A stretch of 52,209 nucleotides of DNA from Candidatus Woesearchaeota archaeon. Lineage in GTDB: Archaea; Nanobdellota; Nanobdellia; Woesearchaeales; UBA11576. Location of the stretch: NCBI GenBank assembly GCA_016929255.1, contig JAFGJH010000044.1, forward strand, positions 1 through 52,209, written 5' to 3'. Positions 43,404 through 45,269 of this stretch are shown one piece after another. Under the pieces are notes generated by a model, which saw only the letters and a list, made by a program, of their open reading frames with translations, was not told the origin of the DNA and did not search any database. The position numbers and the translations under genes are program-made. Position 1 is the first letter of the stretch. Each line of letters starts with the position of its first letter.

Positions 43404-44117
43404 ATGGAGATTGACCATCCGATACAGCAGAGCATAGTATTGAAGCTTATCCATAAGCCTGAGATGTCTTTCTCGGAGCTTCTGGGTGATGAGAAGGAGT
43501 CTAATAAGTTTGCTTATCATCTGGGGGTGCTTGAGACAAAGGAGATAATACAGAAGGAGAACGGATACTATTCCCTTTCTGCGCTTGGCAAGAGGCTCTC
43601 TTCTTTTATTGAGGGAGATACCGGCCAGAAGGCTGCGTTCCCTACGTTCGCCCATGTGCTCATAGTGCAGGACTGCAACAAAATCCTCGCTCAGAAGAGG
43701 CTGAAGGAGCCGTTCTATGGTTACTGGGGCCTGATGTCAGGCAAGATAAACTTTGGTTTCAATGTCGAGGAGTGTGCACGAAGAGATATCGAGGAGGAGT
43801 GCGGCCTGAAGGCTAACAAGTCTGAGCTTATCGGCATAAACCAGGCAAAGACTTATGAGGATGGCAAGCTGCTCCACCATCACATCATGTTCTACGTCAG
43901 ACTGGGTGGGCTGGAAGGTACTCTGAAGTCCAAGACCCACAAGGGTGAGAATGCCTGGATGACCATCGATGAGTTCAAGAAGAAGGAGCGCTTCCCTGAC
44001 CCTTGGTTCGACGCTGTCATGAACGCGAAGGGCTTTGTCAGCATCGAGACAGAGCGCATCATGAAGGACGGGAAGTTTGTGGACTGCAGGATGGGCACGA
44101 TGAAGACATTGCCTTAG
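43404..44117 (+). CDS. Winged-helix plus Nudix-domain protein
   Basis: A 237-residue protein. Residues 1-70 form a winged helix (QQSIVLKLIHKPEMSFSELLGDEKESNKFAYHLGVLETKEIIQKENGYYSLSALGKRL), and about 80-215 a Nudix hydrolase fold. The Nudix box is degenerate: it starts GKINFGF and ends RDIEEECGL, so the Glu at box position 7 is Phe and RE is RD, but the two metal-binding Glu residues are kept. Fusion of a winged helix to Nudix suggests a regulator that senses a nucleotide or sugar nucleotide. The start is set by a TTTTTATATTT box centred 26 nt upstream. Its end overlaps the convergent truD by 4 nt. Confidence 0.85.
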   Translation: MEIDHPIQQSIVLKLIHKPEMSFSELLGDEKESNKFAYHLGVLETKEIIQKENGYYSLSALGKRLSSFIEGDTGQKAAFPTFAHVLIVQDCNKILAQKRLKEPFYGYWGLMSGKINFGFNVEECARRDIEEECGLKANKSELIGINQAKTYEDGKLLHHHIMFYVRLGGLEGTLKSKTHKGENAWMTIDEFKKKERFPDPWFDAVMNAKGFVSIETERIMKDGKFVDCRMGTMKTLP

Positions 44118-45103
44118 GCCATCATCCTTTTCACAGCCATTGTCGCATAGCAGCCTTTAGGCAGGAAGAATTTCACTAAGAATTCTTTTTCTCCTTTCTT
44201 TTCAATCTTCATCTCCTTGACCTCTGCGACCATATCCCGCATCCCGCCTTCTGAACTGAGCTCAGGCATCTGTCTTATCACGAAGTCCCTTTCTGTTATC
44301 TCTTCTTTTTTCATGATATCCCTGATTATCCGCATCACTTCCTGCTCTCCCTGTTCAGTTCCGAAACCCACTATCTGGACCTTCATCCGCGGAACCGAGA
44401 CCTTTGGAAAACACAGCTCTCCAAGGCTGTAAGGCACTTTTAAGACATCATACTTACATTGTAAGTATTGACTTACTGCTGTGTTCCAGAGCCAGCTCTG
44501 GTATGCGTGGACATGCATGATCCTTATCTTCAGGGGAAGGGTCTTCATCGCCCCTACAAAGTCTGTCGGGCTCTCTTCAAGATGCGACCTGACTGACTCC
44601 GCATCTATTGCTGCGCATGCTTTCTTGAGCTCTCCTTTCACGATGGATCTCCCCACCTCTACATTTGTCTGCGAGAATCTTTGCTCATCGAAGTAGTTGA
44701 TGAACTGAGCTATGGAAGCAGGCTCCTTGTCGCACTCCCGTATCATTATCTCGAAGCGGTTGCCGTCGAGCTCGCCGAGGCTTATGGGGTTCTTTCCTCT
44801 TCCAATATGCTCCAGTGAGATGTCCTCCGTGTTGAATCTCTCGAACCTTCCCGCGCCGATCCTGCTCGCAGGGTCATTTATTGATATCGCCTGCCTTGTC
44901 ACGGCCTGCTTGTCCTTGTTGCCTGCGAAGCCGATGTCCTTGAGCCTGCACTTGAGGAACCTGCTTATGCTCTCCAGTGCCTTGACAGTTGTGTATCCTC
45001 TTTTTCTCAGCCAGAAATAGGCATACTGCTCTGAATCCTCCAGCTCAAGCTGTATCTGCTCTTCCACCACAAATTCTTCTGGCTTTTCCTTTATCTTGTA
45101 CAT
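44114..45103 (-). CDS. truD: tRNA pseudouridine synthase TruD
   Basis: It makes pseudouridine 13 in tRNA. The 329-residue protein has the TruD signature GFAGNKDKQAVTRQ (Asp as catalytic residue), later NYFDEQRFS where NYFGxQRFG is usual, and FEIMIRE before it. The TRUD insertion domain is short compared with bacterial enzymes. A TATA element at 45126-45138, centred 28 nt from the ATG, gives a leaderless message and is shared with the divergent tRNA-Arg gene, an apt pairing of a tRNA and a tRNA-modifying enzyme. Confidence 0.93.
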   Translation of the reverse strand: MYKIKEKPEEFVVEEQIQLELEDSEQYAYFWLRKRGYTTVKALESISRFLKCRLKDIGFAGNKDKQAVTRQAISINDPASRIGAGRFERFNTEDISLEHIGRGKNPISLGELDGNRFEIMIRECDKEPASIAQFINYFDEQRFSQTNVEVGRSIVKGELKKACAAIDAESVRSHLEESPTDFVGAMKTLPLKIRIMHVHAYQSWLWNTAVSQYLQCKYDVLKVPYSLGELCFPKVSVPRMKVQIVGFGTEQGEQEVMRIIRDIMKKEEITERDFVIRQMPELSSEGGMRDMVAEVKEMKIEKKGEKEFLVKFFLPKGCYATMAVKRMMA

Positions 45104-45125: not shown

Positions 45126-45138
45126 CCTTATAAATATT
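45126..45138. promoter_or_regulatory. One TATA element serving both truD and tRNA-Arg
   Basis: CCTTATAAATATT reads as a good TATA box on both strands. The truD ATG (45103) is about 28 nt to the left and the tRNA 5' end (45159) about 26 nt to the right. No other TATA-like sequence lies in the 55-bp gap. Confidence 0.6.
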
Positions 45139-45158: not shown

Positions 45159-45269
45159 GCGGCTGTAGCGCAGCCTGGATACATCAAGTCCTTGCTGGAT
45201 TCGCTGTAGGGCAAATAGCGCGACTGCCTCCTAAGCAGTAGGTCGGGGGTTCGAATCCCCTCAGCCGCG
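45159..45269 (+). tRNA. tRNA-Arg (CCT) with an intron in the D loop
   Basis: The acceptor is GCGGCTG (45159-45165) with CAGCCGC (45262-45268) and discriminator G. The anticodon arm is ACTGC-CTCCTAA-GCAGT, anticodon CCT. The T arm is canonical (GGGGG-TTCGAAT-CCCCT). The D stem is GCGC (45168-45171) with GCGC (45218-45221), and the D loop AGCCTGGATA is interrupted by about 36 nt at its end. Removing these gives a textbook tRNA with G18-G19. Intron position 21/22 is not the canonical 37/38 site. Confidence 0.9.
45182..45217 (+). other. Non-canonical intron in the D loop of tRNA-Arg
   Basis: These 36 nt lie between GGATA and GCGC of the D arm. ATA is repeated at both borders, so the cut may shift by up to 3 nt. 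Inside, GTCCT can pair with AGGGC near the far end, as expected for part of a bulge-helix-bulge structure. Confidence 0.7.

Follow-up and report, generated by a model that had tools for sequence, protein, structure and literature searches.

Does the segment at 45159-45269 on the forward strand of the window (the whole 52,209-nt stretch of woesearchaeal DNA analysed here) encode a tRNA-Arg(CCU) interrupted in its D loop, and, if so, where would its precursor be cut and by what kind of enzyme? A complete tRNA-Arg(CCU) is obtained here only after 36 nt are taken out of the D loop. The product is then a textbook tRNA, as the preliminary description of this DNA had maintained: the acceptor forms 7/7 pairs, the D stem is GCGC:GCGC, the D loop is AGCCTGGATA, the anticodon loop CTCCTAA and the T loop TTCGAAT, which completes the cloverleaf. 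ARAGORN reports tRNA-Arg(cct) in the exon-joined sequence; it finds no tRNA in the unspliced gene, with its intron option on or off, and none in the whole window. The gene is divergent from an ORF which we take to be truD, and whose closest named match is in the Nanoarchaeota MAG JAHJSS010000056 (79%), followed by matches at 33-43% in Nanoarchaeia and Woesearchaeota, among others. The TATA-like box TTATAAATA, also present at the corresponding locus of a sister genome (L059), is a putative promoter element. The features of the locus are collected in Table 1.

Table 1. Features of the tRNA-Arg(CCU) locus, in window coordinates. BHB, bulge-helix-bulge.
Feature	Position	Strand	Basis
truD (tRNA pseudouridine synthase D), presumed	44114..45103	-	ORF and homologs; divergent neighbour used as synteny anchor
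TATA-like box TTATAAATA, putative promoter element	45128..45136	+	Sequence; about 30 nt upstream of tRNA-Arg(CCU)
5' exon of tRNA-Arg(CCU), positions 1-19	45159..45178	+	Acceptor and D-stem pairing; intronless orthologs
BHB central helix, exon strand GCCT (15-17a)	45173..45176	+	Pairs with 45209-45212
5' bulge GG^A, favoured cut after 45178	45177..45179	+	GG^A in 14/22 interrupted orthologs
36-nt D-loop intron, favoured frame	45179..45214	+	BHB cut sites, covariation, spliced cloverleaf
Intron-side helix, 5' strand TACA	45180..45183	+	Pairs with TGTA at 45205-45208; MFE fold
BHB central helix, intron strand GGGC	45209..45212	+	Ortholog covariation
3' bulge AA^A, favoured cut after 45214	45213..45215	+	AA^A in 15/22 interrupted orthologs
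3' exon of tRNA-Arg(CCU), positions 20-73	45215..45269	+	Anticodon CCT at 45230-45232

The preliminary description had left room for a better tRNA model without an intron. Our own parser, which combines the cloverleaf with BHB introns, scored the locus at 64.1 when the intron was allowed and at 38.0 in the best parse without one; the maximum among dinucleotide-shuffled starts over the loci of this genome was 49.4 (400 of 739 scored). The Rfam tRNA model does match the unspliced DNA at 45203-45265 only, with 40 bits, and this is what can be said for a tRNA that begins near 45195-45203 and has no intron, the 3' part of the presumed intron supplying its acceptor and D strand. The match is partial because that part of the intron substitutes for the missing 5' half. 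Besides its lower score, such a tRNA would have a D loop without GG, and would ignore both the perfect 7-bp acceptor partner at 45159 and the retention of the upstream 5' exon in orthologs; we regard it as extremely unlikely. The resemblance between intron and 5' exon on which it would depend (10/11 bases) is not a family trait, reaching p < 0.05 in only two of 22 introns. The same matching bases in this genome had suggested that the intron arose when part of the tRNA 5' half was duplicated, an idea rejected for that reason.

It is very probable, in our judgement, that the 36 nt form a BHB intron, inserted after G19 of tRNA-Arg(CCU) within the D loop, and that EndA cuts it out before a ligase joins the exons. 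ATA is present at both ends of the intron, so that the frames from 45179-45214 to 45182-45217 yield an identical mature tRNA. The last of these, with a junction at 21/22, was the one originally proposed; its D-loop location and its mature product stand, but the cuts best supported by pairing and covariation, GG^A and AA^A, place the intron three bases to the left, at 19/20 inside the D loop rather than where loop and stem meet. In the precursor, the exon sequence GCCT would pair with GGGC near the 3' end of the intron and thereby present the two bulges. EndA, a single short subunit that is presumably homotetrameric, would cut both, and a ligase, normally RtcB in archaea, would join the exons into an ordinary tRNA.

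The BHB motif of this intron has a canonical 5' bulge, 4/4 central pairs and four intron-side pairs. Its exon-side helix is weak, consisting of a single A14-U pair next to the 3' bulge, before A21, with 1 x 5 bases unpaired at this point in the MFE structure. Compared with the strict form (hBHBh'), in which helices flank the two 3-nt bulges on either side, the motif is regular towards the intron but, with one exon-side pair, incomplete towards the exon. An unconstrained MFE fold of the precursor forms the BHB hairpin within the cloverleaf at -45.7 kcal/mol, a prediction to be read with an ensemble frequency of 0.12, a centroid that pairs the D region otherwise and a z of only -2.0. The view that an intron at this position demands an endonuclease of relaxed specificity is not borne out: the cut-site motif is largely canonical, the exon-side helix being its one weak part, and the D-loop position alone therefore requires no relaxed enzyme. 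The sole EndA subunit found, moreover, is loopless, as described below.

Comparison with relatives provided an assessment of the motif that does not presuppose it. Regions upstream of truD were collected from 147 relatives, giving 148 loci with the window, and the orthologous tRNA-Arg(CCT) was recognised from its exon sequence, its paired D stem and an acceptor without mismatches, the BHB playing no part in the choice. The D loop was contiguous at 27 loci and interrupted at this junction at 22, the latter class having a 3' exon that starts with ATA; the 99 unmatched loci have truD elsewhere, introns at other positions or sequences beyond the pattern. Within the order, then, tRNA-Arg(CCU) beside truD is found both with and without a D-loop intron, and several relatives have D-arm introns at other sites (e.g. 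L060, L082, L183 and L205). The tRNA-Arg(CCT) of the congener G003 (L060) has its D-arm introns after mature nucleotides 22 and 29, and such shifted introns point to a fast turnover of intron sites.

Among the 22 interrupted orthologs, the central helix is paired at 87 of 88 positions; the one that fails to pair is in L086. When partners were shuffled among orthologs, a mean of 80.5 positions were paired and none of 20,000 shuffles reached 87; these shuffles ignore kinship, and, since related species are non-independent, the count is not to be read as a probability. Watson-Crick pairs numbered 63, compared with 51.8 after shuffling, and sliding the partner by one to three positions left 12 to 47 paired. 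Combinations seen include GCCT:GGGC, GCCT:AGGC, GTCT:GGAC and GTAT:GTAT. In the intron-side helix, 66 of 84 positions were paired against 42.4 in shuffles of the same kind, a value again reached by 0/20,000. These alignments plainly point to compensatory changes on both sides of the central helix across the 22 orthologs.

Such changes, and the perfect cloverleaf of the exons, are difficult to reconcile with retention of the 36 nt as an enlarged D loop or with the gene being a decaying pseudogene. A second, intact tRNA-Arg(CCT) elsewhere would free this copy to decay; the loci examined, which represent part of the genome, contained none. Identical cut sites also occur in other tRNAs, the same D-loop BHB design (GCCT GG^A ... 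GGGC AA) being present in tRNA-Arg(TCT) and tRNA-Lys(TTT) of this genome, and we consider retention or decay very unlikely. The chance that the intron is self-splicing or mobile (group I) is practically negligible. Introns of that type do occur in archaea, including in the rRNA of Woesearchaeota (PMC6125680), but 36 nt is far below the size of a catalytic core, the covariation is explained by a BHB, and no Rfam intron family matched at cut-off in the window.

The intron of tRNA-Arg(CCU), which is real, belongs to a heavily interrupted set of tRNAs. From this genome (1.21 Mb, 60 contigs, 93% complete), in which 10 tRNAs lie above the Rfam cut-off, our parser reconstructed 18 distinct tRNAs, all but one of them (17/18) interrupted, with 26 introns in total: 12 in the anticodon arm, eight in the T arm and six in the D arm, so that 14 lie outside the anticodon arm. 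Two further introns proposed by the parser after the T arm were discarded as spurious. All three sites are occupied in tRNA-Arg(TCT), which carries introns in the D, anticodon and T loops. The central helix is 4/4 in 22 of the 26 introns; a 4/4 central helix together with at least two intron-side pairs is present in 6/6 D-arm, 5/12 anticodon-arm and 3/8 T-arm introns, and roughly one in two of the genome's remaining introns has no regular intron-side helix and might call for a relaxed enzyme. The parser demands at least 3/4 central pairs, which biases this genome-wide census towards the BHB, a bias of which the ortholog comparison is free. Because loci were seeded by Rfam hits and a T-arm pattern (30 of 38 pattern hits became loci), tRNA genes with an odd T arm are under-sampled. 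The earlier suggestion that such introns are a trait of this lineage is upheld both by the frequency of interruption at this junction among the truD loci (22/148) and by the D-arm introns found in 6/18 of the reconstructed tRNAs.

Standard tools miss interrupted tRNAs, as is evident from the absence of ARAGORN predictions in the window and the 10 Rfam tRNAs in the genome. Recognisable tRNAs ranged from 9 to 43 per genome among 39 (this genome and 38 relatives), and G019, a relative complete in a single contig, has 14. In consequence, tRNA counts, and completeness estimates that depend on them, can fall short of the true values in this order.

D-loop BHB introns are themselves a known kind. Non-canonical archaeal tRNA introns, D-arm BHB introns like the one here among them, are known from Thermoproteales, other Crenarchaeota, Thaumarchaeota and Nanoarchaeum; PMC4090602 lists the positions 20/21, 22/23, 53/54 and 59/60, besides others. 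PMC8450103 gives an intron density of 0.21 per tRNA gene overall and 0.84 in Thermoproteales. An intron-rich tRNA set is also shared with the Asgard Atabeyarchaeia and Freyarchaeia, which belong to a different phylum and in which 92-95% of tRNA genes are interrupted, often at non-canonical positions and many by multiple introns; that figure, from PMC11291895, is a whole-genome census, whereas ours concerns 18 reconstructed tRNAs of one MAG. In the nanoarchaeon Nst1, 2/41 tRNAs are interrupted and no beta subunit was found (PMC3655853). Our literature search, with subscription journals mostly beyond its reach, turned up no publication that deals with EndA or tRNA introns in Woesearchaeota. What is noteworthy in this genome is the combination of an intron-rich tRNA set, interrupted at three tRNA sites, with a one-gene, loopless EndA.

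The genome has one EndA locus, a 202-aa ORF with one match each to PF01974 and PF02778. A missing beta subunit was considered and rejected, both EndA domain searches of the genome converging on this locus and neither yielding a second subunit gene. There is one domain match per genome in 39/39 genomes (this one and relatives), and across the order at least one match in 217/241, with two in six of those listed. The enzyme is of the short single-subunit kind, a class of about 170-230 aa with N and C domains, alpha4 type by gene content. In sequence, NEQ205 of Nanoarchaeum equitans (3iey) is closest among solved structures (E 5.9e-36); in that species EndA has an added structural beta subunit, NEQ261, whereas no second gene was found here. 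In fold, the predicted monomer (mean pLDDT 80.7, with the tail of residues 1-25 below 50) best matches the Methanocaldococcus jannaschii alpha4 enzyme 1a79 (Foldseek TM 0.88 on target), and it presumably assembles as a homotetramer. The last codons of endA are repeated downstream of the gene in this locus (L001).

We read 55 EndAs of the order (L001, L088-L116 and L244-L268), extending an earlier alignment of 27. The Tyr-His-Lys catalytic triad is intact in all of them, and all lack the broad-specificity loop (the Crenarchaea-specific CSL or the ARMAN-specific ASL, a lysine-containing insertion of 11-18 residues close to the active site). The segment that would bear the CSL is 10-12 residues long in 55/55; its counterpart has 21 residues in Sulfolobus tokodaii and 10 in M. 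jannaschii. The EndA described here and that of M. jannaschii have in common one short subunit, the catalytic triad and an equal loop length (11 and 10 residues, respectively). PMC4033280 describes the latter as restricted to canonical BHB motifs. Here, in contrast, introns at other positions are numerous in the genome, and some of them have no regular intron-side helix. Crenarchaea have an (alpha beta)2 EndA with a CSL; this order, of the different lineage Nanoarchaeia, has one loopless subunit.

A search of this MAG, which is 93% complete, did not recover RtcB. Of 241 genomes in the order, 223 have the gene, the sister G001 among them, and it is missing in 18, G003 and the present genome included. 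A loss of the tRNA ligase was considered and set aside on the strength of these occurrences: as RtcB is widespread in the order, an assembly gap is likelier.

Repeated sequences were also observed around the tRNA genes. Partial copies of the 5' half of tRNA-Arg lie upstream of the gene in the relatives L061, L063 and L086, and L006 and L049/L059 each have a short repeat of the tRNA 3' end downstream of the gene. An AT-rich hairpin of similar sequence, GCTCAAAATC-AGA/AAA-GATTTTGGCA, lies within the tRNA-Val intron of L012 and, outside any intron, downstream of tRNA-Arg in L049; it is possibly a dispersed repeat.

According to PMC4033280, PMC6379350 and PMC12397907, alpha4 and alpha2 EndAs cut only canonical BHBs, and loops or subunits accompanied intron diversity. 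It is conceivable, though we hold it doubtful, that across this large DPANN order a heavily interrupted tRNA set, with D- and T-loop introns and incomplete BHBs, is processed by a single loopless EndA, perhaps by means of a variable, lysine-rich N-terminal tail. If true, a loopless EndA with a broad range would break the rule that ties range to a second subunit and a specificity loop. The tRNA-Arg(CCU) locus is a natural setting in which to ask whether such an enzyme is constrained by the position of the intron or by the shape of the BHB. Across the 55 loci the N-terminal tail measures between 9 and 86 residues, and in some it is rich in lysine and glutamate. Longer EndAs show a weak tendency to occur with fewer recognisable tRNAs (Spearman -0.46, p 0.016, 27 of 39 genomes, uncorrected for kinship), a correlation that we treat as a lead only.
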